From a virus: a stretch of DNA of 27,434 bases. Below the pieces are notes generated by a model. The model had not been told where the DNA came from and searched no databases. It saw only the letters and a list, made by a program, of their open reading frames with translations. Both the position numbers and the translations under genes were made by a program. The DNA lies in the IMG/VR virus record IMGVR_UViG_3300025889_000768, positions 1-27,434 of that record; one strand, given 5' to 3'. Below, piece by piece: positions 4,776 to 24,306 of this stretch. Every line of letters begins with the position of its first letter. The first letter of the stretch is position 1.

Positions 4776-4915
4776 CGTTTAGAATAAGCCCCCTTGTTGG
4801 TATAATGTTTGGAATCAACTGGCTTGATTGGGGCGAAGATGGATACGAAGAGGTTGGACACCGCTATGAGTTGCAGATTGCCGTTGGTGTCTTTATCATT
4901 CAAGTTATATCGTAA
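4772..4915 (+). CDS. Unknown 47-aa protein, possibly membrane-associated
   Basis: ATGA overlap with the DnaA-like gene; its stop overlaps the sigma-factor start (TAATG at 4913). Two hydrophobic stretches (ISPLVGIMFGINWL and IAVGVFIIQVIS) flank an acidic loop, compatible with membrane association. Not recognised. Its tight coupling on both sides supports translation. Confidence 0.55.
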   Translation: MTFRISPLVGIMFGINWLDWGEDGYEEVGHRYELQIAVGVFIIQVIS

Positions 4916-8411: not shown

Positions 8412-8662
8412 AGAAACACACCAAAGTATATTTGCAAGGGATGGGGTACGACACTACCGACTGGATACCTTGCGAGGTGTGTAGCAAAACGGCAGTAGAC
8501 ATCCACCACATAGAGGCAAGAGGGATGGGTGGATCAGGAGAGCGAGATACGATAGAAAACCTAATGGCTCTATGTAGGGATTGCCATACCCGATACGGAG
8601 ACGTAAAGCACCACAAGGAGTGGTTGCAAGACATCCACGAAAGAAAGTTATTTAAGAGATGA
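8408..8662 (+). CDS. HNH endonuclease
   Basis: 84 aa. Zinc knuckle Cys22-x2-Cys25 and Cys56-x2-Cys59 frame the HNH core His33-His34, Asn51 and His60 (IHHIEARGMGGSG, then ENLMALCRDCHTRYG). Small HNH proteins near the terminase genes assist cleavage of packaged DNA in several phages (for example HK97 gp74), and its place just before the methyltransferase and terminase fits that. A free-standing homing nuclease is the alternative. The gene end carries an AGTTATTTAA motif. Confidence 0.88.
   Translation: MKKHTKVYLQGMGYDTTDWIPCEVCSKTAVDIHHIEARGMGGSGERDTIENLMALCRDCHTRYGDVKHHKEWLQDIHERKLFKR
8646..8655 (+). promoter_or_regulatory. AGTTATTTAA motif, copy 1
   Basis: AGTTATTTAA ending 3 nt before ATG 8659 of the methyltransferase gene, inside the last codons of the HNH gene. 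Core identical to the copies at 11273, 16329, 21577 and 24274. Candidate phage promoter or translation element. Confidence 0.35.
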
Positions 8663-9798
8663 AAGTAGATATCAAAAAGGTTATACCAAACCCCAGTAAC
8701 CCACGCATCATCAAGGATGATAAATTCAAGAAGCTGGTGAACTCCATAAAGGAGTTCCCTCAAATGCTTGAGCTACGTCCTATTGTAGTGGATAGCAATA
8801 TGGTAGTGCTTGGAGGGAATATGCGCCTTAAGGCATCTATTGCTGCTGGACTTCAAGAGGTGGATATCCTCATTGCTGATCAACTGACGGAGGAGCAGAA
8901 AGCCGAGTTTATCATCAAAGACAATGTGGGCTTTGGTGAGTGGGATTGGGATTTACTTGCTAACGAATGGGATGTAGATGCTTTAACGGAATGGGGATTG
9001 GAATTACCTTTTGATACTACGCCCGTATTGGAAGCGGAGGAAGATGACTATGAAATGCCGAGCGAGATACAAACCAATATCGTACTTGGTGATTTAATAG
9101 AGATAGGCCAACACCGATTGATATGTGGGGATAGTTCTGATTCCGACCTGATAGAAAAAGTCCTAAACGGACAAACAATAGACCTATTACTTACAGACCC
9201 TCCTTATGGTATTGACTATGGTAGTCAATTAGTAAATGGAGATGAGTATTCCGAAAAAACCAACAAGCACGGATGGAGAAACTTTGGTTCTCCTGATTGG
9301 GATAAAAAACGACCTGAAGAATCTCATCTGATTTATTTAACTCAAATAAGCGAAAATCAAATTATTTGGGGTGGTAATTACTTCACTGATTTTCTTCCGC
9401 CAAGTATGGGATGGCTTATTTGGGATAAAGGTCAAAGAGGATTTTCTCTTGCAGATGGGGAGATGGCTTGGACTTCTTTTAATAATGCACTACGAATTAA
9501 AGAATACGCTCGTGCTTTAGCAAATAGAGAAGAAAAGAATCACCCGACTCAAAAGCCCATTGAAATAATTAAATGGTGCTTTGAATATGCTGACCGACAC
9601 TCAAAGTCAAAAAACGAATTGACATTTGATGCATTTCTCGGAAGCGGCTCTACAATGGTAGCAGCACACCAACTCAACCGCAAGTGCTATGGTATGGAAC
9701 TTGACCCCAAGTACTGCCAAGTGATTGTAGACCGAATGCAGAAACTTGACCCAACGCTTGAAATCAAAATAAACGGTAAGCCGTATGGACAAAACTGA
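8659..9798 (+). CDS. ParB-like domain fused to DNA methyltransferase
   Basis: 379 aa. Residues 1-95 are a ParB/Srx-like domain (PNPSNPR, then VVLGGNMRLKASIAAG with the GxxRxxA motif). The rest is an N6-adenine or N4-cytosine methyltransferase: DPPYG at 180-184 precedes DAFLGSGST (324-332, the SAM-binding FxGxG), the beta-class order, with the target-recognition part between. It should methylate phage DNA, guarding against restriction or marking it for its own nucleases. DNA for residues about 175-320 is richer in A/T than the two ends, suggesting exchange of the target-recognition region. Confidence 0.88.
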   Translation: MKVDIKKVIPNPSNPRIIKDDKFKKLVNSIKEFPQMLELRPIVVDSNMVVLGGNMRLKASIAAGLQEVDILIADQLTEEQKAEFIIKDNVGFGEWDWDLLANEWDVDALTEWGLELPFDTTPVLEAEEDDYEMPSEIQTNIVLGDLIEIGQHRLICGDSSDSDLIEKVLNGQTIDLLLTDPPYGIDYGSQLVNGDEYSEKTNKHGWRNFGSPDWDKKRPEESHLIYLTQISENQIIWGGNYFTDFLPPSMGWLIWDKGQRGFSLADGEMAWTSFNNALRIKEYARALANREEKNHPTQKPIEIIKWCFEYADRHSKSKNELTFDAFLGSGSTMVAAHQLNRKCYGMELDPKYCQVIVDRMQKLDPTLEIKINGKPYGQN

Positions 9799-10123
9799 AC
9801 AACATAAAAAGGCAATGCTTGATGCTCTGGAGAAATCTTTGGGCGTTGTAACTGCCGCTTGTAAGGCGGTAGGTATTGGGCGCACTACGCACTACCTATG
9901 GATGCAAGAGGATGCCGAATACAAAAAGGCCGTAGAGGACTTAAACGATGTGGCTATTGACTTCGCAGAAAGTCAACTGCATAAGCAAATTAAAGACGGC
10001 AATTCCACCGCGACAATCTTCTACCTAAAAACAAAGGGTAAGAAGCGAGGTTATGTAGAACGCCAAGAGATAGAAGCTACCGGAGGTAAGATGTTCCAAA
10101 TAGAGATTCTTGGCGAAGATTGA
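9785..10123 (+). CDS. terS: Terminase small subunit
   Basis: 112 aa. An N-terminal helix-turn-helix (SLGVVTAACKAVGIGRTTHYLWM, residues about 18-40) is typical of TerS DNA-recognition domains, followed by an oligomerisation helix (VEDLNDVAIDFAESQLHKQI) and a tail GKKRGYVERQ. TerS binds the packaging site and regulates TerL. It overlaps the methyltransferase by 14 nt and TerL by 14 nt. Confidence 0.88.
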   Translation: MDKTEQHKKAMLDALEKSLGVVTAACKAVGIGRTTHYLWMQEDAEYKKAVEDLNDVAIDFAESQLHKQIKDGNSTATIFYLKTKGKKRGYVERQEIEATGGKMFQIEILGED

Positions 10124-11264
10124 AACCAATAAGGTATTCGGACACCTACTGCGCTCGGATAAGAAAATCATCGTAGAGCAAGGTGGTACTCGTAGTGGTA
10201 AGACCTACAATATCTTGCTATGGATCATCTTTAAGTATACCGAGCAAGAGACGGACAAAACCATAACCATCTGCCGTAAGACCTTCCCCTCCCTCCGGGC
10301 ATCGGTAATGAGGGACTTCTTTGATATATTAAGAATACACGACCTCTACATAGAGGAACACCACAACAAGTCCAACCACGAATACTACCTCAACGGAAAC
10401 CTCATTGAGTTTATCTCGCTTGATCAGCCTCAAAAGATTCGCGGTAGAAAGCGTAACCTACTTTTCATCAACGAAGCAAACGAGCTATTTTTAGAGGACT
10501 GGCAGCAGCTCGTATTCCGCACCGATGGGCGCATCATCCTTGACTACAACCCATCCGATTCCTTCCATTGGATCTACGATAGGGTGATACCCCGCGATGA
10601 CTGCGACTTCTTTCAAACAACCTATAAAGACAATCACTTTCTTGATCCAAGCATCAGGGAGGAGATTGAGAGGCTACGAGATACCGATGAGGACTACTGG
10701 CGTATCTATGGCTTGGGTGAGCGCGGTATGTCCCGCGCCACCATCTTCCAATTCCAAATAGCCGATGAGCCAAAGGGCAACCTCGTTTCGATGGGTCTTG
10801 ACTTCGGATTCACCAATGACCCTACCTCATTGGTCAAGGTCTACAAGGACGGTGATGACCTATACATCCAAGAGCTGCTCTACCATACCAACCTCACCAA
10901 CCAAGACATTAGCGACAAGTTCAGGGAGTTTGGCCTCACGCGGTATGATGAGATATGGGCAGATAGCGCAGAGCCAAAGAGCATTGAGGAACTGCATCGT
11001 ATGGGATGGAATGTAAAGCCCACCGCAAAGGGGGCTGACTCCGTAATGGCTGGGATAGACATCCTCAAGCGTCACCGCATCCACGTTGTTAAGGACTCTC
11101 TAAATGCTATCAAGGAATTCCAAAACTACAAGTGGCAAGAGGACAAGAACGGCAACCTTCTCAACCGCCCAATAGACGCATTCAATCACGCTATTGATGC
11201 CACGCGATACGCTACCTTTAACCGACTCTCCCGCCCTAACTACGGGCGGTATGCGATACGCTAA
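10110..11264 (+). CDS. terL: Terminase large subunit
   Basis: 384 aa, Terminase_3-type packaging motor. Walker A is G25-GTRSGK-T32; Walker B is LLFINEAN (117-124), with Glu122 catalytic; a Q-loop-like SLDQPQKIRGRKRN precedes it. The C-terminal RNase H-like nuclease shows GLDFGFTNDPTS (about 229-240) and the last Asp in DAFNHAIDATRY. Start: the only codon that gives a complete N terminus and couples to TerS is TTG 10110 (no ATG in frame before Walker A), an unusual start for this genome. It cuts concatemers or circles and drives DNA into proheads. Confidence 0.95.
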   Translation: MAKIETNKVFGHLLRSDKKIIVEQGGTRSGKTYNILLWIIFKYTEQETDKTITICRKTFPSLRASVMRDFFDILRIHDLYIEEHHNKSNHEYYLNGNLIEFISLDQPQKIRGRKRNLLFINEANELFLEDWQQLVFRTDGRIILDYNPSDSFHWIYDRVIPRDDCDFFQTTYKDNHFLDPSIREEIERLRDTDEDYWRIYGLGERGMSRATIFQFQIADEPKGNLVSMGLDFGFTNDPTSLVKVYKDGDDLYIQELLYHTNLTNQDISDKFREFGLTRYDEIWADSAEPKSIEELHRMGWNVKPTAKGADSVMAGIDILKRHRIHVVKDSLNAIKEFQNYKWQEDKNGNLLNRPIDAFNHAIDATRYATFNRLSRPNYGRYAIR

Positions 11265-11272
11265 CCCAAAAA

Positions 11273-11282
11273 AGTTATTTAA
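11273..11282 (+). promoter_or_regulatory. AGTTATTTAA motif, copy 2
   Basis: AGTTATTTAA (then GTAGAG) six bases before ATG 11289, in the 24-nt gap between terminase and the tail module. First of the copies that open a block of structural genes. Candidate late promoter or translation element. Confidence 0.45.
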
Positions 11283-11288
11283 GTAGAG

Positions 11289-11957
11289 ATGAATATCATA
11301 GTACCCAACCGCCTTGATGAGATCACCCTTGGTCAGTATCAACGCTTCCAAAAATTGGAAGGCGATGAGGACTTCTTGGGGCGTAAGATGGTAGAGATTT
11401 TCTGCGGTATAAAGATGGATGTCATCAAAAAGATGAAGGTGTCCTCCATCACCAAGATAAACGAGACCCTCCTCAAGGCGTTCTCCAAACGCCCGGAGTT
11501 CCAATCCACCTTCAAGATGGATGGTGTGGAGTACGGCTTTATCTCTAACCTTGATGAGATCACCTTCGGTGAGCTTCACGACATTGAGACCACCATCACG
11601 GACTGGCAACGGATGAACGAAACGATGGCGGTGCTATACCGCCCTATCGTGCAAAAGATGGGTAAGAGGTATCGCATTAAGGACTACGATGCGGATGCCC
11701 TACAAGCAGAGCTAATGCGTAAGATGCCTTTGAGTGCTGCAATGGGGGCTATGGTTTTTTTTTGCGATTTAGGGATGGATTTATCAAGAACTTTCCTGAC
11801 ATCTTTAGCGAAGGAGAAGCAGATCAGTTCAGCAGCGAGTCCCAGTTCTCAAGACGCTGGGGATGGTTTCCTTTATTCTACTCTCTTGCTCAAGGGGATG
11901 CTACCCGATTTGATGACGTTTCCAAACTCAACGCAGCCTTCGCACTCACCTACCTGA
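11289..11957 (+). CDS. Probable tail assembly chaperone, zero-frame product
   Basis: 222 aa as read straight through. Residues 1-158 look genuine (ITLGQYQRFQKLEGDEDF, then FGELHDIETTITDW, ending AAMGAMVFF). After T9 at 11755-11763 the zero frame becomes low-complexity and Ser/Pro-rich (SSAASPSSQDAG), while the -1 frame continues as a protein-like sequence. Tail assembly chaperones of many siphoviruses are made as a short form and a frameshifted long form (lambda G and GT). It is the first gene of the tail module, as expected. I read the zero-frame tail as either the short form's end or an artefact of an indel. Confidence 0.6.
   Translation: MNIIVPNRLDEITLGQYQRFQKLEGDEDFLGRKMVEIFCGIKMDVIKKMKVSSITKINETLLKAFSKRPEFQSTFKMDGVEYGFISNLDEITFGELHDIETTITDWQRMNETMAVLYRPIVQKMGKRYRIKDYDADALQAELMRKMPLSAAMGAMVFFCDLGMDLSRTFLTSLAKEKQISSAASPSSQDAGDGFLYSTLLLKGMLPDLMTFPNSTQPSHSPT
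11755..11763 (+). other. T9 slippery tract, probable -1 frameshift site
   Basis: GTT TTT TTT TGC in the zero frame allows re-pairing one base back on T runs; a -1 shift after codon 158 enters the frame 11762-12019. RNA polymerase slippage on the same tract would have the same effect. A homopolymer length error in the assembly is the other explanation. Confidence 0.6.
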
Positions 11958-12019
11958 CTTTTGAGAAAGACAAATTAGACACGGAAAATAAGATACTAAA
12001 GAAAAGCATTAAGCGATGA
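11762..12019 (+). CDS. Tail assembly chaperone, C-terminal part in the -1 frame
   Basis: 85 codons with no credible start of their own (first codon TTG inside the T tract). The sequence RDGFIKNFPDIFS, then WGWFPLFYSLAQGDATRFDDV, then LNAAFALTYLTFEKDK is well-formed protein, of a kind I know from the C termini of this phage protein family. Joined by a -1 shift to residues 1-158 of the upstream frame it gives a 243-aa protein. Its stop overlaps the next start (ATGA at 12016), so translation reaches the next gene from this frame. Confidence 0.7.
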   Translation: MRFRDGFIKNFPDIFSEGEADQFSSESQFSRRWGWFPLFYSLAQGDATRFDDVSKLNAAFALTYLTFEKDKLDTENKILKKSIKR

Positions 12020-12483
12020 GAAACTTCTACCTCGTATTGGAGAAAATAAAGGGAGTCCTTGAGGCTCACTCACAAGTCAATGTAGTCACCTACGGGGACA
12101 TCTTTGACGTTGACATCAACAAGCAAACCATCTTCCCCCTCTCCCATATTATGGTCAACTCCGCTACCATCGCTGGTCAAGTCATCCGCTTTAACATTTC
12201 GGTCATAGCTATGGATGTGGTGGATGAGACAAAGGAGGACATCCGAGACCAGCAAGAACCGTTCTATGGAACGAGCAACTTGCAAGACATCCTCAACACC
12301 CAACTGGCGGTATGCAATGCCGTAGTCAAGCAATTAGAGAAAGGGGACTTGCACTTTGACAAGTACCAACTGGAAGGCACTCCCCAATGCCTCCCCTTCC
12401 AAGACCGCTTTGAGAACCTCTTGGCGGGATGGAACTGCACCTTTGATGTCATCACACCCAATACCGAAATCTCTATCTGCTAA
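12016..12483 (+). CDS. Putative tail terminator / completion protein
   Basis: 155 aa. Pattern NVVTYGDIFDVDINKQTIFPLSHI, then IRFNISVIAMDVVD, then LQDILNTQLAVCNAVVKQL, then WNCTFDVITPN is known to me from flavobacterial phage tail modules. The alpha/beta layout (N-terminal helix, strands, long helix, strands) resembles tail terminator proteins such as lambda gpU. Position between the chaperone and an HK97 gp10-like gene supports this. Role is inferred. Confidence 0.5.
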   Translation: MRNFYLVLEKIKGVLEAHSQVNVVTYGDIFDVDINKQTIFPLSHIMVNSATIAGQVIRFNISVIAMDVVDETKEDIRDQQEPFYGTSNLQDILNTQLAVCNAVVKQLEKGDLHFDKYQLEGTPQCLPFQDRFENLLAGWNCTFDVITPNTEISIC

Positions 12484-13019
12484 TGATTTGGGAGAATACA
12501 AACGCCTACCTAACGGCCTTTGCAGATAGGGTGTTGCAACAAGCGCAATTAGAGCTTGGGGCATACCGTACTATTGACGGCAAGAGACGGAGGACGGACT
12601 CCTCCGGTAGGTTGCGCGAATCACTTCCGGGATCGTATACCCTAAAGACAATGGATAGCTCCATTGACCTCAAGTTTTTTGAGAACAACGATGCGTGGAA
12701 GACCTACGGCTATGTGGTAGACCAAGGGCGTAAGCCCGGCAAGGGCGTACCTCCTGATGCGTTGAAGGCGTGGATACGCCAAAAGCCTATCCGCTTGAGG
12801 GACTTGGAGACGGGAAGCTTTGTAAAAGCCACCGAAGCAAGAGTCAATTCATTAGCCTACCTGATCAACCGAAAGATTAAGCAAAAGGGCATTGCCCCTA
12901 CTTACTTCTTCCAAACACCCTTTAGAATAGCATTTGAACAACTACCGAAGGAAATCACAGAGCCATTTGGCTTGGACGTAGCGGACTTCCTTCGCTTCAC
13001 ATTAGGTAAAGAAAAATGA
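12483..13019 (+). CDS. HK97 gp10-like tail completion protein
   Basis: 178 aa. The N-terminal helix ENTNAYLTAFADRVLQQAQ, the conserved basic loop GRLRESLPGSYTLK, the VVDQGRKPGKGVPPDALKAWI segment and a final Phe-rich part with PTYFFQTPFR match the HK97 gp10 type of neck or tail-completion protein, which joins head connector and tail. TAATG overlap with the gene before and ATGA with the gene after. Confidence 0.6.
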   Translation: MIWENTNAYLTAFADRVLQQAQLELGAYRTIDGKRRRTDSSGRLRESLPGSYTLKTMDSSIDLKFFENNDAWKTYGYVVDQGRKPGKGVPPDALKAWIRQKPIRLRDLETGSFVKATEARVNSLAYLINRKIKQKGIAPTYFFQTPFRIAFEQLPKEITEPFGLDVADFLRFTLGKEK

Positions 13020-14287
13020 GTACACCCACTTTAGGCTATCCCGAAAGCCTACGCTTTAGCCGTAGCCCAATCTTTGTAACGGGCAAGAATAACGCTCTTG
13101 CTAACGACTCACTTGATAGTATGACGCTTGGCGTTAAGTTGTATACGGGGGCTAAAACAAGCCCCCCAGCTTCTAACAACTACTCATTGAGCAAGGCTTA
13201 CTCTATTGATGAGGTAATCAACTTTGAGATCAGCAATCTCACGCAAGACCAGTACTCCCATCCTATGGGCTTGTTCAATATTAGTACCTTTAGCGCAAGT
13301 GAGGTCGGTGAAGTTATTTGGGTTGCTATTGCTGGGGATTGGACGTATTCAGATAATGGCGCAACGCCCGTAACCGCCCCTTGGGGAACGGGTACTACCT
13401 ATGCGTTTCTTGCTACCGATGGATGGACAAAAAGAGGCGAGGCACAAAACCGAAAGTACGACTCGGCACGAATGACCATTGACCGCACCTATCAGGTATA
13501 TGCGTCTCACCGCCAATCTCTCGCTTCTCAATATGCTGCCTACACGGGACTAAACGGAGTGGTGTATAAGATTGACGGCACTAATTACTGGTATGTCCTT
13601 GCGGATGAGTTGGGCTTTTCAAACACATCTAACGAAAGCCAAAACAAGGTAATCTATATCCCAAGTGGAGTGCCTAACATTGAAGACTTGGTAGGAGTAA
13701 CGCCTACGACTACCTACTCAATTGGCCTGATCACTAACAACGAGGGCATTGACTACAAGGCGCGAGTAGAGGCAGACGGAGGCACGGTAGAGGGGTTCAC
13801 TTGCCTAATGAATGCCATTGAAGCTCTTGGAGGCGTAGATGCCGATACGCACAACTATGAGGTGGTGTGCGAAACGAAATATACTCCCGAAATAATCCAG
13901 TATGTCAATCGCTATGGAGTAAGTGATTACCTCACCTTCTTTAAGGTAAGCACGGAGCAAGGCACATTTACTAACGACCAATACAAGCGTAGCCTCTATG
14001 CTGATGCCTTTACCGAGCCGGACTTTAAGACGGCTCAATACCAAGATTTCAATGTCAATTCACGAAACACTATCACCCTAAATACGGGCTGGGTAGAGGA
14101 AGCCTATAAGGATGTGATTGAGGATATGCTGATGAGCGAGGATGTACGCATCTATGAGGGCGGTAGCTACCGAAGCGTAAATCCCCAACGCGGTACGATT
14201 GACTACCAAAAATCAGTCAACACCAAAAACATCAATTACACCATCACGTTTACCTACGGGCATAACGAGCGCAATTTGATCCGATGA
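13016..14287 (+). CDS. Structural tail protein, 423 aa
   Basis: Beta-rich with many Thr, Asn and Tyr, no signal peptide. Residues about 247-270 hold a short module (YKARVEADGGTVEGFTCL) that recurs twice in the small protein at 24303. The C-terminal part (DYQKSVNTKNINYTITFTYGHNERN) is predicted beta strands. It lies two genes before the tape measure, coupled to the large protein after it. It may be a tail tube or baseplate component; the family is not certain. Confidence 0.6.
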   Translation: MSTPTLGYPESLRFSRSPIFVTGKNNALANDSLDSMTLGVKLYTGAKTSPPASNNYSLSKAYSIDEVINFEISNLTQDQYSHPMGLFNISTFSASEVGEVIWVAIAGDWTYSDNGATPVTAPWGTGTTYAFLATDGWTKRGEAQNRKYDSARMTIDRTYQVYASHRQSLASQYAAYTGLNGVVYKIDGTNYWYVLADELGFSNTSNESQNKVIYIPSGVPNIEDLVGVTPTTTYSIGLITNNEGIDYKARVEADGGTVEGFTCLMNAIEALGGVDADTHNYEVVCETKYTPEIIQYVNRYGVSDYLTFFKVSTEQGTFTNDQYKRSLYADAFTEPDFKTAQYQDFNVNSRNTITLNTGWVEEAYKDVIEDMLMSEDVRIYEGGSYRSVNPQRGTIDYQKSVNTKNINYTITFTYGHNERNLIR

Positions 14288-16314
14288 ACCAAGTAGATAT
14301 TTACATCAACGACCAACGGCTTGACTTATTCCAAGATGAGGAAATAAGCATCAATTTGTCGGTGCAGAATGTCCAAGATATCTCAAAGGTATTTACGGAC
14401 TTCACGCAGTCATTCACCGTACCCGCCTCTCAAACCAACAATCAGATTCTTGCCCATTATTATAGGACGGACTTGACTGCTGGGGTTGACTTTCGCCTTC
14501 GGCAAGAGGCGAAGATTGAAATTAACTCTCTTCCCTTTCGTACTGGCGTAATGCAAATGGAAGCCGTACAACTAAAAGGTACGGAGCCTTATGCTTATAC
14601 CCTTTCGTTTTATGGGGACTTGGTAAACCTAACTGATCTATTCGGGGAGGACTACCTCTATGACTTGGACTTCAGCGCGTATGATCACGACTATAATGGG
14701 GCAACTATTCAACAAGGTTTTGATTCGGATGCACTTTTTAGCGGAGAGGTCTTTTATCCCCTAATGTCTCCCGTAAGAAATTGGGTGTACAATGTTAGCA
14801 GTTCCTCTGACCCGAGACACGAAGACGATATTCAGTTTGTAACGGGACACGCGGGACACCATCACGGGGTGAGATATGATGAGCTAAAACCTGCCGTTAA
14901 GGTCGTTAAGATTCTTGAGGCGATGGAAACCAAATACGGAATCAATTTCGTTGGGGACTTTATGAGCGATACGCAGTTTAATAAACTCTATTTGTGGGCG
15001 CATCGCTTTGAAGGATACTTGTATGATTCCTCAACGGCTATTGAATGGCAACTAATTAATTTCAATCGCTCTACGGGTGGAGGGTCAGAATTTAATCTAA
15101 CTACTGACACTTGGACGGTTGTAGATACGGACACCTATGAGCTGCGAATTACCTTGCAGAATGTAGGCACAAACTATGAGATAGGATTGTTCCAAAACGG
15201 CAATCAAATAGGCATAGCCCAAGAGAATGCTCATCCCGCCTCAAGCGTTCTCATCACTTTTCAGGGTTATATCTTTGATGCTGGAGATGAGGTACAAATC
15301 AAGATCCGCCCTCGTTCGGCAGCAACTTTCAACTACCAAGTAACGGATTACACGGCCTACGATGAATCTACAATCACTCAACGCTTTGAGGTAGATCAAA
15401 CGGCTTTCGCTACTTACACTTTTCAACTTGCTATGAGTCCTTTGATGCCTGAAATAAAGGTGAAGGATTTTCTCGCTGGTATCATAAAGATGCACAACCT
15501 TGTTATCACGCCTAATAGCACAACGGAGTTTAATCTACAAACCCTAAACGATTGGTATGCGGATGGCGTTAATCAAGATCTAACGACCTATATGGATATC
15601 AATGAGGTATCTATAAATCGCCCACAGTTATACCGAGAAATCAGCTTTGATTATCAAGATACGGAGCAGATATTAGGATACGAATACCAACGCGCAAATG
15701 CCGTTGGTTATGGTGATCTTAACGCCTTTTTCAACTGGGATGGTGATACATTCAATATCAACCTTCCTTTTGAATGCCCATTGTTTGAACGCCTAACGGA
15801 TATTGACAACGGAACACTCACCAACATCCTCGTATACAAATCCCAAACGCGGGAGTTTGATACGGATTATGAAAACCGCTTCCAGCCTTATGTGGGTGCG
15901 CCTATTTTGATTTACGGGGAGTTTTCAGTTGACATAAGCGCAAACCCCATATCGTTTGTAGATGAGGCAGACATTGAAACGCAAGTAAACAATGTTTGGT
16001 ATGCTAATGTATCAAGCACAAGTGTTGGAACGGGATTAGCTTATTCGCTATGCTGGGGAGCAGATACTGATCCCTTCTATTTCCTCCCCGTAGGCAAGAG
16101 CCTGTATCAAACCTATTGGGAGGACTACATCTCTGACTTATATGATTCCAAGCGTAGGATTGTCCAAGCAGAAGGCGTATTGCCTATTGGTAAGATCCTA
16201 AACCTACAACTCAACAACAAGCTTATTTGGAACAACCAAAGGTGGTTTGTAAATACCGCCAATGTAAATATGACTACTGGCAAGGTGAGTTTTGAATTAT
16301 TGAACGAGGTATGA
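14284..16314 (+). CDS. Large tail / baseplate protein, 676 aa
   Basis: The N terminus (VDIYINDQRLDLF, then DISKVFTDFTQSFTVPAS, then INSLPFRTGVMQMEAVQL) is a very typical start of a large tail protein of Bacteroidota siphophages. A middle beta-sandwich-like part (about 250-370, TDTYELRITLQNVG) could be a carbohydrate-binding insertion. The N-terminal part, ending in a FYGDLVNLTDLFGEDYL segment, resembles distal-tail or baseplate hub proteins. Directly upstream of the tape measure rather than downstream, as usual for this phage group as I know it. Confidence 0.65.
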   Translation: MNQVDIYINDQRLDLFQDEEISINLSVQNVQDISKVFTDFTQSFTVPASQTNNQILAHYYRTDLTAGVDFRLRQEAKIEINSLPFRTGVMQMEAVQLKGTEPYAYTLSFYGDLVNLTDLFGEDYLYDLDFSAYDHDYNGATIQQGFDSDALFSGEVFYPLMSPVRNWVYNVSSSSDPRHEDDIQFVTGHAGHHHGVRYDELKPAVKVVKILEAMETKYGINFVGDFMSDTQFNKLYLWAHRFEGYLYDSSTAIEWQLINFNRSTGGGSEFNLTTDTWTVVDTDTYELRITLQNVGTNYEIGLFQNGNQIGIAQENAHPASSVLITFQGYIFDAGDEVQIKIRPRSAATFNYQVTDYTAYDESTITQRFEVDQTAFATYTFQLAMSPLMPEIKVKDFLAGIIKMHNLVITPNSTTEFNLQTLNDWYADGVNQDLTTYMDINEVSINRPQLYREISFDYQDTEQILGYEYQRANAVGYGDLNAFFNWDGDTFNINLPFECPLFERLTDIDNGTLTNILVYKSQTREFDTDYENRFQPYVGAPILIYGEFSVDISANPISFVDEADIETQVNNVWYANVSSTSVGTGLAYSLCWGADTDPFYFLPVGKSLYQTYWEDYISDLYDSKRRIVQAEGVLPIGKILNLQLNNKLIWNNQRWFVNTANVNMTTGKVSFELLNEV

Positions 16315-16469
16315 CAAAGGGCTTTATTAGTTATTTAATTGAGGTACTCCAAGGTGATGACCACCTTGGCGTATCAGACAATGTAGAGATAGCAAAGGGA
16401 AAATATCACCTTCCAACCACTTGGGGTGAAGGTAAAAAATTGATACGCAGACAATGGCTGAACAAGTAG
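16311..16469 (+). CDS. Small 52-aa protein before the tape measure
   Basis: ATGA overlap with the preceding stop, and the 3' end overlaps the tape-measure start by 16 nt. The product begins MTKGFISYLIEVLQGDDHLG and ends in a basic tail (GKKLIRRQWLNK). Codons 7-10 contain the AGTTATTTAATT motif, which reads SYLI. The coupling on both sides suggests real translation. Function unknown. Confidence 0.55.
   Translation: MTKGFISYLIEVLQGDDHLGVSDNVEIAKGKYHLPTTWGEGKKLIRRQWLNK
16329..16343 (+). promoter_or_regulatory. AGTTATTTAATTGAG motif, copy 3
   Basis: Identical to the copy at 21577-21591 over 15 bases, plus the two T bases before. Here it lies inside the 52-aa gene, 110 nt before the tape-measure ATG, so it cannot be a ribosome-binding element for that gene. 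This position favours a promoter role. Confidence 0.4.
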
Positions 16470-18205: not shown

Positions 18206-19134
18206 AACTAATAGAACTGATCATAGATGAGAATGAATTCTTCTCCGGCATCAATGCCATCTCCCTTGTGGAGTACCCAGCCATTGAGGAGGACTTTATT
18301 GCCCTCTCCAAGCAGAAGGTAGAATTCGCTACCCAAAACGCAGAGAAGCGCATCCTTATGGGTGCTGCTCTCGTTCCCAACAAACCCATCTATCGCAAGG
18401 ACGGTGAGGAGGAGTTTTATGTCTACTTCACCAAAGACACCATCCGCAAGGCGAGTGAGATGTTCTTTCAAAAGGGCAACCAAAATAACTCCACCCTTGA
18501 ACACGAAGATAGCATTGACGGGATGAGCGTTGTGGAATCTTGGATCATTGAAGATGAGGAGAAGGACAAGAGCCGTATGTACGGCCTTGAGCTTCCAGTA
18601 GGCACTTGGATGGTATCTATGAAGGTCAACAACCCTGACATTTGGGAGAACTACGTCAAGACCAACAAGGTCAAGGGCTTTTCTATTGAAGGCTACTTTG
18701 CCGACAAGGTAAATATGAGTCGCAACCCCCTTGCCGAGATTGAAGAGCAAGAGGCTGCTCTGATCCTATCCTCCATCGTAGGTATCATCAAGCGAGACGG
18801 CAGACGCAAAAGCGGTAAGCGTTTGGAGATGGAATCCTACACCGACTACCCCGATGCGGTGAAGAACAATGCCAAGCGAGGCATTGAGCTAAACGAAAAG
18901 AACGGAAACAAGTGCGCTACTGATGTCGGCAAGATACGAGCGCAACAACTCGCACAAGGCAAACCCATAAGCGTAGAGACCATCACCCGTATGTATTCCT
19001 ATCTCTCAAGAGCCGAAGAGTACTACGATGAGAGCGACTCCTCTGCGTGTGGTACTATATCCTTCCTCCTATGGGGAGGGAAGGCTGGTAAACGATGGGC
19101 AGAATCTAAACTCAAAGAACTTGGTAAACTATGA
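18202..19134 (+). CDS. Prohead protease (XkdF-like) with extra C-terminal domain
   Basis: 310 aa. Residues 1-200 carry the XkdF-type serine protease signature: His101 in TLEHEDSI, VVESWIIEDEEKDKS, GTWMVSMKV, and the nucleophile Ser161 in VKGFSIEGYF. It would process scaffold and capsid during head maturation. Residues about 205-310 are a separate helical domain (DYPDAVKNNAKRGIELNEKNG, then ISVETITRMYSYLSR, then ISFLLWGGKAGKRWAE), an attachment I have met in other phage proteins but whose role is unclear. ATGA overlaps with both neighbours. Confidence 0.85.
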   Translation: MKLIELIIDENEFFSGINAISLVEYPAIEEDFIALSKQKVEFATQNAEKRILMGAALVPNKPIYRKDGEEEFYVYFTKDTIRKASEMFFQKGNQNNSTLEHEDSIDGMSVVESWIIEDEEKDKSRMYGLELPVGTWMVSMKVNNPDIWENYVKTNKVKGFSIEGYFADKVNMSRNPLAEIEEQEAALILSSIVGIIKRDGRRKSGKRLEMESYTDYPDAVKNNAKRGIELNEKNGNKCATDVGKIRAQQLAQGKPISVETITRMYSYLSRAEEYYDESDSSACGTISFLLWGGKAGKRWAESKLKELGKL

Positions 19135-19274
19135 AACCCCCTAAAGTAAACAACGCATCACCCAAAGGCTCAAAGCGTGGGTGCTTATGCAAGGACAAGA
19201 ACACCTACTCCCGTAAGTGCTGCGATGGTAGCCTATGGGCGCAAGGCGTGGGCAATGTAACCTTGCCCTCTTAA
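19131..19274 (+). CDS. Small Cys-rich protein, 47 aa
   Basis: ATGA overlap with the protease. The pattern GSKRGCLCKDKNTYSRKCC followed by DGSLWAQGVG occurs in small proteins of many Bacteroidota phages as I recall. Four cysteines (18, 20, 30, 31) could bind zinc or form a capsid-associated metal site. Its place between protease and scaffold suggests a head-assembly role. Confidence 0.65.
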   Translation: MKPPKVNNASPKGSKRGCLCKDKNTYSRKCCDGSLWAQGVGNVTLPS

Positions 19275-19326
19275 AAATGTAACAAAACATTCAAGCATAG
19301 TCATTTATTTAGAAGCAATTCAAATT

Positions 19327-19947
19327 ATGAAGGCACAAAACGTATTGAACAAAATCTTGACCGAACTCGCACAAATCCGCAAGGTAGAGTTCGCTCAAAT
19401 GAACCTTGAGAACGGTACTATTCTTGAGGCTGAAGAGTTCGCTCCTGAAAACGAAGTATTTATTATTTCGGGCGAGGAGCGTGTACCCGCACCAGTCGGG
19501 GAACACAAATTGGAAGATGGAAGCATCCTCGTTATTGTTGAGGAAGGCATCATCTCCGAGATCAAGGAGGCTGAAGCCCCCGAAGCAGAGGTAGAGGTTG
19601 AGATGCAATCCGAGGAAGCCGTAGCGGTTGCCGAGGAGGTTGCTGCTGACGTTGCTACGGAAGCTGCTGATGCAATCACCGAAGAGGTATCTGCTGCCAT
19701 TGAGGTTGCAGTTGCCGAAGCTCTTGCTCCCGTTGTTGAGGAAGTTGCTGCCGAGATGAAAAAGCTCCGCGAGGAGTTGTCATCTGCCAAGACGGAGATG
19801 GCTGCTATGGAGAAGAAGTTCTCTTCTCAATCTGCTGCCCGTCCTATCAAGCACAACCCATCCAAGCAAGAACCTAAACAAGCAATGTTCTCATCCAAGC
19901 GTCAACCCAACACGCTTGACCGAGTATTGGCAAAATTGAATAACTAA
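19327..19947 (+). CDS. Capsid scaffolding protein
   Basis: 206 aa. The N-terminal part is beta-like (GTILEAEEFAPENEVFIIS, then LEDGSILVIVEEG), followed by a long Ala/Glu/Val-rich helical region (about 80-165) and a basic, disordered C terminus (RPIKHNPSKQEPKQ, then TLDRVLAKLNN). Position between protease and major capsid, acidic coiled core and basic capsid-binding tail fit a scaffold that is removed by the protease. It has no ATGA overlap; the 52-nt gap contains a variant of the recurrent motif (AGTCATTTATTTAG, 19299-19312). Confidence 0.75.
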   Translation: MKAQNVLNKILTELAQIRKVEFAQMNLENGTILEAEEFAPENEVFIISGEERVPAPVGEHKLEDGSILVIVEEGIISEIKEAEAPEAEVEVEMQSEEAVAVAEEVAADVATEAADAITEEVSAAIEVAVAEALAPVVEEVAAEMKKLREELSSAKTEMAAMEKKFSSQSAARPIKHNPSKQEPKQAMFSSKRQPNTLDRVLAKLNN

Positions 19948-19965
19948 TTTTTTTCTTTTTTTAAA

Positions 19966-20892
19966 ATGGCTACGACCACTTCTATCACCACTTCATACGC
20001 TGGACAGTTTGCTGCCAAGTATGTATCTGCTGCTTTGTTGAGCGCAGACACGTTGGATAAAGGTCTCGTTGAGATCCTCCCCAACGTAAACTTCAAGTCA
20101 ACCTTGCAAAAGGTTGCTACCGATGACATCGTAAAAGATGCAACGTGTGACTTCACCCCTACCTCTACGCTGACGTTGACCGACCGCGTATTGGAGGTTG
20201 AGCCTTTCCAAGTTAACCTTCAGCTTTGTAAGAAGGACTACTACGATTCTTGGATTGGTTCTCAAATGGGCTACTCTGCTTACGATAGCATCCCCGCCTC
20301 TTTCAGCGATTTCTTGATTGCACACGTTGCTGCCAAGACCGCACAAAAGATTGAGCAAAACATTTGGCAAGGCGTTAACGCTACTGCTGGTGAGTTTGAC
20401 GGCTTCACTACTTTGATGGCTGCTGATGCTGACGTTGTAGACGTAACTGGTACTACCGTTACTGCTGCAAACGTCATCACCGAGCTTGGCAAGGTTGTAG
20501 ACGCTATCCCTTCTGCTCTTTACGGCAAGGAGGACTTGACCATCTACGTTCCTCAAAACGTAGCTAAAGCGTATGTTCGCGCTTTGGGTGGTTTCGGTAC
20601 TTCCGGTTTGGGTGCTAACGGTGTTGACAACAAAGGCACTATGTGGTACGGTCAAGGCGATTTGTTCTTTGATGGTATCCGCGTTGCTATGGTTAACGGT
20701 TTGGCTTCTAACAAGATGGTTGCTGCTCAATCTTCTAACTTGTTCTTCGGTACTGGCCTTGAGTCTGACCGCAACGAGGTGAAGGTTTTGGATATGGGCG
20801 ATCTTGATGGCTCAAACAACATCCGCGTTATCTTGCGCTTCTTGGCTGGTGTTCAGTATGGCATCGGTGCTGACTGTGTATTGTACGCCTAA
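19966..20892 (+). CDS. Major capsid protein
   Basis: 308 aa. Starts ATATTSITTSYAGQF and is rich in Ala, Val and Gly with preferred codons (GCT, GTT, AAC, ACT), as highly expressed genes are. Features include VEPFQVNLQLCKKDYYDSW, KTAQKIEQNIWQG and a DLTIYVPQNVAKAYVRALGG segment, in line with an HK97-fold capsid. It follows the scaffold and is followed at once by a strong terminator. The leader (TTTTTTTCTTTTTTTAAA) is free of structure. Confidence 0.85.
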   Translation: MATTTSITTSYAGQFAAKYVSAALLSADTLDKGLVEILPNVNFKSTLQKVATDDIVKDATCDFTPTSTLTLTDRVLEVEPFQVNLQLCKKDYYDSWIGSQMGYSAYDSIPASFSDFLIAHVAAKTAQKIEQNIWQGVNATAGEFDGFTTLMAADADVVDVTGTTVTAANVITELGKVVDAIPSALYGKEDLTIYVPQNVAKAYVRALGGFGTSGLGANGVDNKGTMWYGQGDLFFDGIRVAMVNGLASNKMVAAQSSNLFFGTGLESDRNEVKVLDMGDLDGSNNIRVILRFLAGVQYGIGADCVLYA

Positions 20893-20913
20893 TTGATTTG
20901 ATTGATTAACCTC

Positions 20914-20947
20914 AAGGGGGTGAGGGTTCTGCCCCACCCCCTTTTTT
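20914..20947 (+). terminator. Intrinsic terminator after the capsid gene
   Basis: GGGGGTGAGGG (20916-20926) pairs with CCCCACCCCC (20932-20941) with one bulged A, followed by T6. It ends the capsid transcript 20 nt after the stop and would reduce transcription of the next gene unless partly read through. Confidence 0.9.
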
Positions 20948-20959
20948 ATTTAAAAAGAT

Positions 20960-21508
20960 ATGGCTTGTAACTTAACCGCTGGACGTGCCATCCCTTGTAA
21001 AGACGTTGTTGGTGGCATCAAAGCTGCCTACTTCGTTAACTACGGGGATTTGGGTACACTCACCTTGACAAACGATGAGGTGACAGATATGAGTGGAACT
21101 TTCTCCGCTTACAAATACGAACTAAAAGGTGCTTCTAACTTGGAGCAATCTTTCAACTCAAGCCGTGAGAACGGCACTACCTTCTTTGAGCAGACGTTGA
21201 CTTTGCAGTTCACCAAGCTCACGAAGGAAGACAACAAGGAGTTGAAGTTGATGGCTTACGGACGCCCTCACGTTGTAGTTCAGGACTACAATGACAACTG
21301 CTTCTTAATGGGTGCATATCACGGTGCAGAGGTTACTGGTGGCTCAATTGTTACTGGTACTGCTATGGGTGATTTGTCGGGTTATACCTTAACTTTGACG
21401 GCTCAAGAAGTTCTTCCCGCAAACTTCATCGCAAGTCCTACGGCATCTGATCCATTTAACGGTATGGCAAGTGCTACGGTAACGATTGTTGAGGGTACGA
21501 ACTCCTAA
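20960..21508 (+). CDS. Probable major tail tube protein
   Basis: 182 aa. Starts MACNLTAGRAIPCKDVVGGI, a start I recognise in structural proteins of Bacteroidota phages. A beta-barrel-like body (SAYKYELKGASNLEQSF, then FFEQTLTLQFTKL, then MGAYHGAEVTGG, then GDLSGYTLTLTAQEVLPANF) recalls tail tube proteins. It uses the same preferred codons as the capsid gene and is enclosed between two strong terminators, as expected of an abundant product. Alternative: a head decoration protein. Confidence 0.55.
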   Translation: MACNLTAGRAIPCKDVVGGIKAAYFVNYGDLGTLTLTNDEVTDMSGTFSAYKYELKGASNLEQSFNSSRENGTTFFEQTLTLQFTKLTKEDNKELKLMAYGRPHVVVQDYNDNCFLMGAYHGAEVTGGSIVTGTAMGDLSGYTLTLTAQEVLPANFIASPTASDPFNGMASATVTIVEGTNS

Positions 21509-21530
21509 CATTTCTTTCATTTGGTAGGGA

Positions 21531-21556
21531 GAGGGGGCGTAAGCCCCCTTTCTTTT
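21531..21556 (+). terminator. Intrinsic terminator with GUAA tetraloop
   Basis: GGGGGC (21533-21538) pairs with GCCCCC (21543-21548) around the loop GTAA, a GNRA tetraloop, extended by A/T pairs and followed by TTTCTTTT. It ends the tail-tube transcript. A copy of the recurrent motif lies 21 bases further on. Confidence 0.88.
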
Positions 21557-21576
21557 GGAATAAACTTTGGCATTTT

Positions 21577-21591
21577 AGTTATTTAATTGAG
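21577..21591 (+). promoter_or_regulatory. AGTTATTTAATTGAG motif, copy 4
   Basis: Directly before ATG 21592 and just after the terminator at 21531-21556. Transcription must restart here or read through, which makes this copy the best single argument for a promoter role. Confidence 0.5.
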
Positions 21592-21951
21592 ATGCATATA
21601 ATAACACCCACACAAGGTCAAGAAATTCGGTTTATCCCACGGGTGGCGGTGGCTTCGCCCAACACTCAAATTATTGATGAGAGCCGAAACAAAGACATTA
21701 CCTCCGAGATATTAAACCAATCGGGATCGTATACAAACGGGATAACAACCTTGTTTCTAAATTTCAAGGAAGGAAAATTCCCCGTAGAGGGAAGGTTCTA
21801 TACCTTCAAGGCATACAACATTGCTACGGGAGATGTTTACTACCGAGGCCGTTTGTTCTGCACCGCCCAAACTATCTTTGACAAGTACACCGTCAACGAG
21901 GGGGTATATACCGAAGAAGATTCTTTTGACAATGAATTCGTGATCATATGA
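21592..21951 (+). CDS. Conserved-type structural protein, 119 aa
   Basis: Beta-rich: ITPTQGQEIRFIPR, then TLFLNFKEGKFPVEGRFYTFKAYN, then GDVYYRGRLFCTAQTIFDKY. Proteins of this pattern occur next to portal genes in Bacteroidota phages as I recall; a role in the head or connector is likely. ATGA overlap with the portal gene. Confidence 0.55.
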   Translation: MHIITPTQGQEIRFIPRVAVASPNTQIIDESRNKDITSEILNQSGSYTNGITTLFLNFKEGKFPVEGRFYTFKAYNIATGDVYYRGRLFCTAQTIFDKYTVNEGVYTEEDSFDNEFVII

Positions 21952-23723
21952 GCAAATTCCATTTTGTAAATCTATCAAGCTACACCTCCCCGGAGATCAG
22001 GGAGGTAAGCAACCGCGATTGGGTGGAGTACGGAGAGGATAACAATTACTTTCAATTCCTGATAGACCGCTTTCAAGGAAGCCCTACTAATAACGCCATC
22101 ATCAATGGCATCTCCGAACTGATCTATGGAAAGGGCTTGGATGCTACGGATTCAGCGCGTAAGCCCGAAGCCTACGCTCAAATGAAGTCCCTCTTTAGTA
22201 AGCAATGCCTTCGCAATGCGTCTTCGGATTTTAAGATGCTTGGGCAATGTGCTTTTCAAGTCATCTACTCCCAAGACCACTCCGCTATCACGGAGGTATA
22301 CCATATGCCCGTTGAGAGCCTACGAGCCGAGAAGTGCAACGAGGAAGGCGAGATTGAGGCGTACTACTACGCCAAGGATTGGAGTGATGTAAAAAATAAT
22401 AAAGAAACGCCTCAACGCATTCCCGCTTTTGGATTTTCCAACGAAGGCATTGAAATCCTATACGTCAAGCCCTACCGCGCTGGATTCTATTACTACGCCC
22501 CCGTGGACTATCAGGGAGGCATTCAATACGCAGAGCTTGAGGAGGAGGTAGCCAACTACCACCTCAACAACATCAAGAACGGGATGTCCCCCTCTATGCT
22601 TATTAACTTCAACAACGGAGTACCTACGGAGGAGGAGCGTTACATCATTGAGAACAAGGTAGCGGAGAAGTTCTCCGGAACTTCCAACGCTGGTAAGTTC
22701 ATCTTGGCATTTAACGACAACAAGGAGATGGCTGCGGATATCACGCCCGTTCAGCTCTCCGATGCTTCCCAGCAATATCAGTTCTTGGCTGACGAGGCAA
22801 TGCGTAAGATTATGGTTGCCCACCGCGTTACCTCTCCTATGCTTTTGGGCATCAAAGACCAAAGCGGATTGGGTAACAATGCGGATGAGCTTATGACGGC
22901 TTCGCAGTTGTTTGACAACATCGTAATCCGTCCGATGCAAGAGACCATCCTTGATGGCTTGGACAAGATCCTCGCCTACAACGATATCTCTTTGAACTTA
23001 TACTTCAAGACCCTCCAGCCTATTGAGTTCACCGATGCAACGGTGACCAATCAAGCTATCATTGAAGAAGAAACTGGCGTTAAGATGTCAAGCGACATCC
23101 CATCCTTTAGCAAAGAGGAGGAATCTGCTTGGATTGAAGAACTGCGGGGAAAGGGTGAGGTCATTGATTTAAACGAATGGGAACTCATCTCTGATGAGGT
23201 AGTCAATGACCCCGACAACGAGGATTCCCACCTCTCCAAGCAATATAATTTTGGCGTTGAGGACTACTCCAATGCTGACGGAGATAGCAAATACGATAGT
23301 GGCCTTTACAAGGTACGTTATGCATATACTCGCAACTTGAGTGCTAACTCCCGCCTCTTTTGTCAAGAGATGGTTTCGGCAGCCAATAGTGGGGTGGTAT
23401 TCCGCAAGGAAGACATTGATATGATGTCTTTTTCGGGTGTCAATGGACAGTTCGCACCAAAAGGGCGTAATGTCTACTCCATTTGGAAGTGGAAGGGTGG
23501 CGTTTACTGCCACCACGCTTGGAGGCGTTTGGTCTACTTCCGCAAGAGAAATAATAAAGGGGAGTTCTTGCCCGATGCTGGTCTTGAGAATGACAAGGTG
23601 GTAAGCACCGAAGCAGCAATCAAGGCTGGTGTGCCAAGCAAGAAATTAGTTCCAACGGCTTGGGATGAAGCCCAAACACGACCAATTGACACACCTAATA
23701 GAGGCTCACTAAAAAATAGATAA
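21948..23723 (+). CDS. Portal protein with C-terminal accessory domain
   Basis: 591 aa. Residues 1-400 are portal-like: NNAIINGISELIYGKGLD (48-65), RNASSDFKMLGQCAFQVIY, PVESLRAEKC, and the stem/wing part HRVTSPMLLGIKDQSGLGNN (292-311). The portal forms the ring through which DNA enters and leaves the head. Residues about 452-535 are a separate domain with the signature SRLFCQEM, FRKEDIDMM, SGVNG, SIWKWKGG, CHHAWRRL. I have seen it on other Bacteroidota phage head proteins; its function is unknown. The portal lies after the capsid gene and far from the terminase. Confidence 0.85.
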   Translation: MSKFHFVNLSSYTSPEIREVSNRDWVEYGEDNNYFQFLIDRFQGSPTNNAIINGISELIYGKGLDATDSARKPEAYAQMKSLFSKQCLRNASSDFKMLGQCAFQVIYSQDHSAITEVYHMPVESLRAEKCNEEGEIEAYYYAKDWSDVKNNKETPQRIPAFGFSNEGIEILYVKPYRAGFYYYAPVDYQGGIQYAELEEEVANYHLNNIKNGMSPSMLINFNNGVPTEEERYIIENKVAEKFSGTSNAGKFILAFNDNKEMAADITPVQLSDASQQYQFLADEAMRKIMVAHRVTSPMLLGIKDQSGLGNNADELMTASQLFDNIVIRPMQETILDGLDKILAYNDISLNLYFKTLQPIEFTDATVTNQAIIEEETGVKMSSDIPSFSKEEESAWIEELRGKGEVIDLNEWELISDEVVNDPDNEDSHLSKQYNFGVEDYSNADGDSKYDSGLYKVRYAYTRNLSANSRLFCQEMVSAANSGVVFRKEDIDMMSFSGVNGQFAPKGRNVYSIWKWKGGVYCHHAWRRLVYFRKRNNKGEFLPDAGLENDKVVSTEAAIKAGVPSKKLVPTAWDEAQTRPIDTPNRGSLKNR

Positions 23724-24223
23724 TGGCAACGGCATTATTCATTACACGACAAGACATTGTCCGCAATACGGCTCTTGGGGGCAATGTGGACACGGACAAG
23801 TTTATCCAGTTCATTAAGATTGCTCAAGAGATCCACATCCAAAACTATTTGGGTAGTAAGCTCTACGACAAGATTGCAGCGGATATCCTTGCTGGAACGC
23901 TCACGGGCAACTATCTGACATTGGTAAACACCTATGTGCAGCCTATGCTGATTCACTTTGCTATGATGGAGTATATGCCCTTTGCAGCATATACCATTGG
24001 CAACGGAGGGGTGTATAAGCACCAAAGCGAGAACTCTGCGAGTGTAGACAAGACGGAGGTGGATTTCTTGATTGAGAAGGAGCGTAAGATTGCGGAGTTC
24101 TACGTCCGCAGATTTGTGGACTATATGACCTACAACCAATCGTTGTTCCCGGAGTACTACGCCAATGTCAACGATGATATGTATCCCGATCAAGATGTAC
24201 AATATAGCGGATGGGTACTATGA
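23723..24223 (+). CDS. Head-tail connector protein (DUF6712-like)
   Basis: 166 aa. An all-helical protein with FIQFIKIAQEIHIQNYLGSKLYDKI, then ITPL-type helix LIHFAMMEYMPF, then VDKTEVDFLIEKERKIAEFY. The YLGxKLYDKI pattern and helical bundle fit head-tail adaptor proteins of the HK97 gp6 / DUF6712 kind, which bind below the portal ring. Position immediately after the portal supports this. Confidence 0.65.
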   Translation: MATALFITRQDIVRNTALGGNVDTDKFIQFIKIAQEIHIQNYLGSKLYDKIAADILAGTLTGNYLTLVNTYVQPMLIHFAMMEYMPFAAYTIGNGGVYKHQSENSASVDKTEVDFLIEKERKIAEFYVRRFVDYMTYNQSLFPEYYANVNDDMYPDQDVQYSGWVL

Positions 24224-24306
24224 GCAAGAAGCGAAACTACGAACCCAAGAAGGTGAACGTATTAAAGCTTAAAAGTTATTTAATTAGGAAAGAAGCAAAG
24301 AAATGA
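24220..24306 (+). CDS. Small basic peptide, 28 aa
   Basis: Linked by ATGA overlaps to the genes before and after. Very basic (MSKKRNYEPKKVNVLKLKS, then RKEAKK). Codons 19-22 (SYLI) are the AGTTATTTAATT motif. It may be a real peptide or only a coupling frame. Too short for the usual gene finders. Confidence 0.45.
   Translation: MSKKRNYEPKKVNVLKLKSYLIRKEAKK
24274..24285 (+). promoter_or_regulatory. AGTTATTTAATT motif, copy 5
   Basis: AGTTATTTAATT followed by AGGAAAGAAGCAAAGAA before ATG 24303, 17 nt away. Lies inside the 28-aa frame. Opens the fibre and lysis block. Confidence 0.45.

Follow-up and report, generated by a model that had tools for sequence, protein, structure and literature searches.

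A recurrent 10-base sequence, AGTTATTTAA, was found in a virus record of 27,434 bases (IMGVR_UViG_3300025889_000768; this whole stretch is called the window below), and it very probably represents the -10 element of this phage's late promoters, which would be read by the extracytoplasmic function (ECF)-type sigma factor that the phage itself encodes. The predicted promoter, in which we place a similarly high degree of trust, consists of a -35 box, ATG[CT]AA[AC]A, that starts 24 bases 5' of the TTA in the -10 box, [ACG]GTTATTTA; as hexamers it reads TGnAAn, 17 bases, TTATTT. From the sequence we infer promoter activity in the cell, reading by the phage sigma, timing and transcript starts. A late-promoter class read by the phage sigma had been proposed in a preliminary description of the window, and the proposal is now supported by the conservation of the motif, by the -35 box and by the change of the motif along the sigma lineage, which together suggest the link to the sigma. 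The -35 box, the ECF class of the sigma, a cultured relative and the position of three motif copies within short open reading frames (ORFs) had been missed in that description.

The 10-mer occurs at 8646, 11273, 16329, 21577 and 24274, on the + strand only and exactly where the preliminary description had placed it. That description had expected well under one copy; dinucleotide shuffling gave an expectation of 0.05, and five copies were reached in 0 of 100 shuffles. The three extended copies (16329, 21577 and 24274, reading AGTTATTTAATT), the identity of two copies over 15 bases (AGTTATTTAATTGAG) and the weaker form at 19299 (AGTCATTTA), all reported before, were likewise recovered, and the weaker site belongs to the promoter set. 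The distances from the 10-mer to the ATG of the next gene were 3, 6, 115 (tape-measure gene, 16454), 5 and 19 bases for the copies in order; they are as variable as had been described, while the former values of 17 and about 110 were slightly low. The copy said to follow a terminator directly is that at 21577, which comes after the strong hairpin 21526-21555. The first arm has none of the five copies, which are confined to the second part of the window, and those at 8646, 16329 and 24274 sit within short ORFs. When 9-mers were ranked blindly, the motif came top in the window and in the related genomes G008 and G009; in most other genomes it was outranked by other repeats, and the starts of homologous genes were therefore compared instead.

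Relatives were collected by TerL and portal searches of a viral collection, the best 80 of each scan giving 160 loci. The 10-mer was present in these loci 72 times in forward and twice in reverse orientation, compared with 5 and 8 for the reversed pattern, and at least one copy was found in 44 of the 80 TerL loci and 10 of the 80 portal loci (54 loci); many of the loci are short and closely related, so that these counts are not independent. An ATG followed within 8 nucleotides (nt) in 53 of the 72 copies (background 0.19). The GTTATTTA group comprises 21 genomes, in which GTTA[TA]TT was located 5' of the gene after TerL (post-TerL gene) in 21 of 21, 5' of the gene opening the portal block in 18 of the 18 in which that gene was found, and 5' of the methyltransferase gene in 9 of 14. 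TTA[TA]TT, which has no leading G, preceded the scaffold-like ORF in 17 of 19 and corresponds to the 19299 site of the window. The search in related phages that the preliminary description had suggested thus found the motif conserved. Of the gene starts compared, the post-TerL ones of G031, G032, G033 and G037 were left out, and starts were moved to the conserved ATG for the pre-portal gene of G003, G011, G025 and G026 and for the scaffold gene of G008 and G009.

The copies within ORFs were compared further. GTTA[TA]TT is kept at the 16329 copy in 17 of 19 relatives, where it encodes a conserved Ser/Gly-Tyr-Leu within an ORF of 52 amino acids. The first of these codons (Ser/Gly) was AGT or GGT in 18 of the 18 relatives tested and, after dereplication, in nine of nine lineages, against 1.4 expected from codon usage (chance of nine 2.6e-8, a strength that is overstated, as shared ancestry was not removed; G001, which is without the peptide, was left out). 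Of 11 relatives, 9 retained the 24274 copy; four mis-assigned starts (G007, G010, G026 and G029) are not among the 11, and in G001 the copy is kept in a different reading frame. The motif at 8646 is maintained in differing reading frames of the upstream ORF across phages. The copies at 16329 and 24274 had at first been judged to be by-products of coding, a judgement that was reversed by the codon test and the frame change; they look conserved as DNA, with a role less certain than that of the other sites.

When the sites were aligned on the TTA, the box ATG[CT]AA[AC]A was found with its first base 24 bases upstream, in the GTTATTTA group (32 sites) as well as in the GTTATATA group (12 sites). 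Two groups whose sigmas are 28-31% identical have this -35 box in common and at an identical offset, and a box at a fixed offset is the geometry of a sigma-read promoter. Sliding the box along the upstream sequence gave, at offset -24, a mean of 7.5 out of 8 for the scaffold site (8 sites; 3.2 elsewhere) and of 6.75 for the GTTATATA group (8 dereplicated sites; 3.0 elsewhere), the background leaving out the four best offsets of each group. The contrast was weaker at the post-TerL site (5.4 at -24, 5.2 at -17, 2.5 elsewhere), where part of the -35 box is also TerL coding sequence. The result was not clean before the portal block (5.0 at -21 vs 4.8 at -24), and -24 was absent from the best offsets at three methyltransferase sites. 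The -10 box ended 3-7 bases 5' of the start codon at 31 of 32 and 8 of 8 sites. A two-box matrix trained on 49 sites, without those of the window, G002 and G040, ranked first in the window the sites 21577 (21.1, the highest score), 11273 (17.5) and the scaffold site (16.6 with the -10 box read at 19303, 16.1 when read at 19299). The best scores of 20 simulated windows ranged from 10.9 to 16.1, all of them below that of 11273.

The product of 4915-5442, which the preliminary description had named a sigma factor, is by its sequence an ECF-type sigma, with region 2, region 4 and little else. It matched the NCBIfam model TIGR02937 (sigma70-ECF) over residues 19-159 with E 1.2e-10 and 41.3 bits, the cut-off being 42.9, and the same model was matched by 32 of the 34 family members (E up to 0.01). 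A PHROG sigma factor match had E 3.9e-5. Pfam Sigma70_r2 gave 18.4 bits for the window sigma, under the 24-bit cut-off; among the 34 members, Sigma70_r2 was found in 17 and Sigma70_r4_2 in 3. The family profile had three matches among PDB sequences, all ECF SigE (E 0.002). The AlphaFold model of the window sigma (mean pLDDT 86.5, pTM 0.45) was searched with Foldseek, and the 23 best matches were all ECF sigma factors (E 0.004-0.1, TM-scores about 0.3-0.4); none of the Foldseek matches was at E 0.001 or better, and the low TM-scores are expected if the two sigma domains are placed differently. Shortly before the sigma gene, a small protein is encoded at 4359-4775 with a weak match to the DnaA C-terminal helix-turn-helix (HTH) domain (E 1.6e-4, under the Pfam cut-off).

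The sigma gene was present in 13 of the 13 records of at least 20 kb reached via TerL or portal (23 records in total), one of them partial at a contig end; no phage with the motif and without the sigma, a case that the preliminary description had raised, was met among them. A profile search of 38 genomes detected it in 37, and the remaining one is cut at its contig end; the count is not independent, since 24 of the 38 genomes were picked via the sigma and 11 sequences built the profile. By tblastn against phage records, the window sigma had no match and the G009 sigma had one weak match, to a faecal phage record (E 2e-3). Absence of the sigma by tblastn means little, because the search missed the relative in phage P12024S that is described below.

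Between lineages, differences in the motif go with those in the sigma and affect several gene starts at once. The sigmas of G008 and G009 share the 28-31% identity with the window sigma mentioned above, and the top 9-mer of these genomes in the blind ranking was CGTTATATA, with 5 and 6 forward copies and 0 reverse. Four copies in each genome lie exactly 3 nt 5' of the ATG of homologous genes, and the rest are inside genes or unplaced. The corresponding positions in other lineages are occupied by GGTTATTT and GTTAATTA, with GGTTAACC and CTATATATA as less certain cases. In a permutation test on 21 chosen representatives (12 with both sites of each pair), the likeness between sites of different genes was greater within a phage than across phages (0 of 2000 permutations reached the observed value), and a control stretch further upstream gave no signal (960 of 2000); this test controls only in part for the base composition of the lineages. 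A shared trans-acting reader would explain the likeness within a phage, and the phage sigma is the obvious candidate for it. We put forward, as a tentative possibility only, that within each lineage the ECF-type sigma and the late-regulon -10 boxes may have shifted in concert (GTTATTTA, GTTATATA, CGTTAATA and perhaps GGTTAACC and CTATATATA) with the -35 box unchanged, and that the late mRNAs might be leaderless or nearly so.

When the portal and post-TerL genes were searched against 50,697 phage records, only the Nonlabens (Persicivirga) phages P12024S and P12024L (Inhavirus) matched, each listed twice. Like the window, both carry a sigma ORF upstream of the terminase; theirs, which in P12024S is P12024S_33, lies about 0.9 kb from the terminase and is annotated with Sigma-70 region 2; it matched the family profile at E 1e-11 (one-sequence search) and is 24% identical to the window sigma. 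P12024S has two-box sites as well: there are five instances of AACAAA-N13-14-CGTTAATA, each on the + strand, against 0.00 expected, and each site is 4 nt 5' of an annotated coding sequence, including the gene before the portal. In record JQ823122 the CGTTAATA boxes of these sites are at 3019, 5400, 23949, 25189 and 26790. The P12024 phages are unlike the window in their -10 box (CGTTAATA), their -35 box (AACAAA) and their genome of 35.7 kb. CGTTAATA totals seven copies in P12024S, two of which are on the other strand within genes, and the post-TerL gene of P12024S has no AACAAA-N13-14-CGTTAATA site. As a rough control, the Flavobacterium phage FPSV-S2 (TerL 38% identical) was used: in FPSV-S2, 0 of 59 starts had CGTTA within 22 nt, vs 7 of 59 in P12024S, and for the looser GTTA[AT][TA][TA] the counts were 2 of 59 vs 6 of 59. 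The annotation of FPSV-S2 names no sigma, no profile search having been made on it. Host-like TAnnTTTG boxes (TACATTTG and TATATTTG) were seen by eye 5' of two genes of P12024S (L344), near 16313 and 19644, as would be the case if early genes relied on the host sigma. Since the host of P12024, Persicivirga/Nonlabens sp. IMCC12024, which we take to be a marine Persicivirga strain, is a Bacteroidota bacterium, Bacteroidota hosts are likely for the whole phage family.

Several results weigh against late promoters read by the phage sigma. In the two-box scan of the window only 21577, 11273 and, barely, 19303 exceeded chance, and three of the six window sites have a -35 box that is weak or misplaced. 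At 8646 it scored -0.9, leaving a total of 14.0 that is within the simulated range; 16329 has none at the usual spacing, ATGACAAA at 16311 being 4 nt too close; and that of 24274 is poor (GGTGAACG at 24252). The shorter GTTATTTAA is additionally found at 6127 and 26297, within genes and away from gene starts. Among the relatives, most of which are non-independent lineages, 5 of 14 methyltransferase starts are without the motif and the scaffold site is without the leading G in 19 of 19. The sigma was found in 0 of the 10 TerL or portal records below 20 kb, which is indistinguishable from truncation, and for the sigmas of G043-G046 it is chiefly the HTH half that aligns to the profile. In the permutation test, one of the three pairs (post-TerL/scaffold) showed no excess (6.75 vs 6.80), and neither did the -35 zone (935 of 2000), as is expected if the -35 box is common to all lineages.

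The sites might instead be promoters read by a host sigma, either the primary sigma-A or a host ECF sigma, a possibility that we regard as unlikely. A promoter class of F. psychrophilum that is ascribed to host ECF sigmas has a CGT box at -10 (PMC9723704, in part), which also speaks against reading by the phage sigma, and the P12024S sites carry CGTTAATA. However, the sigma-A box of F. psychrophilum given in the same source, in part, is TAnnTTTG, and this Bacteroidota box had 19 matches in the window (21 expected), with 0 of 19 on a site. An E. coli-type sigma-70 scan of the window listed none of the sites (14 matches vs 27.8 in shuffles). The -10 box varies between phage lineages along with the sigma lineage, and the sigma gene is kept throughout the 13 longer records, both of which point away from a reader supplied by the host.

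Because most aligned copies end 3-7 bases from the start codon, a translation-initiation signal in the mRNA was also considered, and A-rich, non-Shine-Dalgarno signals are described near the start codon in F. johnsoniae (PMC6847099, in part). Such a signal would account neither for a second box about 24 bases upstream at fixed spacing nor for the ATG gaps of 19 and 115 bases at two window copies; in addition, the major capsid gene and the gene after it are without the motif, and both have A-rich starts. We therefore hold this explanation to be very unlikely. An operator or another protein site unrelated to the sigma, for instance one of the ParB-domain methyltransferase, is barely plausible, for the motif is non-palindromic, nearly one-stranded and tied to gene starts. 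The same grade applies to its being partly a by-product of the peptide Ser-Tyr-Leu, which the copies at 16329 and 24274 do encode in small ORFs: the codon choice at 16329 is far from usage, and at 24274 and 8646 the motif persists in other reading frames.

For late promoters read by the phage's own sigma, as far as can be tested by comparison, the closest precedent appears to be coliphage phiEco32, and the system of the window would work likewise. In the phiEco32/SU10/7-11 group, the phage sigma gp36 serves middle and late promoters with the motif tAATGTATAtA, located 6-8 nt upstream of the late and middle transcript starts (PMC4281155 and PMC4331800, both in part). Shared with that group are the phage-encoded sigma, ECF by the SU10 annotation, and a few -10-like copies heading late blocks (same sources, in part). 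The window accordingly has a phage ECF-like sigma and a motif of its own at the heads of late blocks, which that sigma would read. In contrast to phiEco32, the window family comprises other phages with presumed Bacteroidota hosts, its -10 boxes are GTTATTTA, GTTATATA or CGTTAATA and are joined by a -35 box, and its sites lie almost on the start codon. phiEco32 further encodes gp73, an inhibitor of the host sigma-70 polymerase.

ECF promoters typically have an AAC-type -35 and a short -10 box, and the B. subtilis SigW/SigX consensus was used in the comparison. The window family shares with bacterial ECF sigmas the match over both sigma domains and, in two groups, a CGT-like -10, and it may share an AAC-type -35 core (TGTAACA, AACAAA). 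The AAC-type trait is seen as ATG[CT]AA[AC]A in two groups and as AACAAA in P12024S, subject to the three weak or misplaced boxes of the window. Unlike the bacterial systems, the sigma is phage-borne and the -10 continues as GTTATTTA, GTTATATA or GTTAATA. The late promoters of T4, TATAAATA, are read by gp55 and are not known to have a -35 box; they share with the window family the small phage sigma and the A/T-rich -10 motif for late genes, and differ from it in that the -35 box is present in the window family. For the ECF comparison in F. psychrophilum, the SM6 promoter class was used (PMC9723704, in part).

The features of the window are collected in Table 1.

Table 1. Putative promoter elements, sigma gene and hairpins in the window
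Feature	Position	Strand	Context
Putative late promoter (TTGCAAGA ... AGTTATTTAA)	8624..8655	+	3 nt 5' of ParB-methyltransferase gene; the HNH ORF ends within it
Putative late promoter (ATGCGATA ... AGTTATTTAA)	11251..11282	+	6 nt 5' of post-TerL gene (11289)
-10-like element	16329..16338	+	Inside 52-amino-acid ORF 5' of tape-measure gene
Putative late promoter (ATGTAACA ... AGTCATTTA)	19277..19307	+	5' of scaffold-like ORF and major capsid gene
Putative late promoter (TTGGAATA ... AGTTATTTAA)	21555..21586	+	5 nt 5' of gene opening the portal block
-10-like element	24274..24283	+	19 nt 5' of ORF 24303 (fibre block); overlaps a small ORF
ECF-type sigma factor, 175 amino acids (sigma region 2 and region 4 HTH)	4915..5442	+	Arm before the late genes
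Terminator-like hairpin	20914..20943	+	3' of major capsid gene; -23.3 kcal/mol, z -4.2
Terminator-like hairpin	21526..21555	+	Immediately 5' of promoter 21555-21586; -22.9 kcal/mol, z -4.4

Neither hairpin was listed in a consensus scan of the window. Because its terminal direct repeat of 79 bases (1-79 and 27356-27434) is exact, the window is probably a complete, circular assembly; the ORF at its start continues across the join. All nameable genes are on the + strand. The first arm holds genes for a DnaB-like protein, a weak DnaA-C-like protein, the sigma and a DUF3799 nuclease-like protein, and it is followed by those for an HNH protein, the ParB-methyltransferase, terminase, tape measure, a protease-like protein, portal and a tail protein. 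We call ORFs 19327 and 19966 scaffold-like and major capsid from position and product; ORF 19966 had a weak, virion-structural PHROGs match. Near the start of the first arm (about 955-1045) the window is AT-rich with CTTAACTTA-type repeats, and tandem AGTTAGTTA repeats were seen on the reverse strand of G006 (L201) and G007 (L204) within a non-coding-looking stretch; these repeat stretches are possibly an origin or an early control region. In G044 and G046 (loci L328-L329 and L332-L333), one internal TAG was noted in the TerL frame of both, which may reflect TAG recoding in their lineage.

Taken as a transcription programme, the genes before 8600, including the sigma gene, would be transcribed early by the host polymerase, and the phage sigma would take the host core polymerase to the late sites, which head the methyltransferase/terminase, tail, scaffold-capsid, portal and fibre blocks. 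The two hairpins would separate blocks, with a fresh promoter after the second. As the distance from the end of the -10 box to the start codon is mostly 3-7 bases, transcripts would start at or next to that codon and have very short leaders or none. Of the mRNAs examined in F. psychrophilum, 5.5% were leaderless (PMC9723704, in part), and in F. johnsoniae 87% of predicted leaders were longer than 10 nt (PMC6847099, in part).

In our literature search of open-licence papers, no earlier description of a phage sigma and its promoters in Bacteroidota phages was found. If the proposal is true, it would provide the transcription programme of a phage family that is common in the viral contig collection (at least 80 TerL and at least 80 portal matches). 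It would also offer a reader-target pair with variation between lineages, from which the recognition of -10 sequences by ECF sigmas could be learned. Near-leaderless late expression would become testable in a phylum without Shine-Dalgarno signals and with few leaderless mRNAs known, and the cultured phages P12024S and P12024L would allow a direct test.

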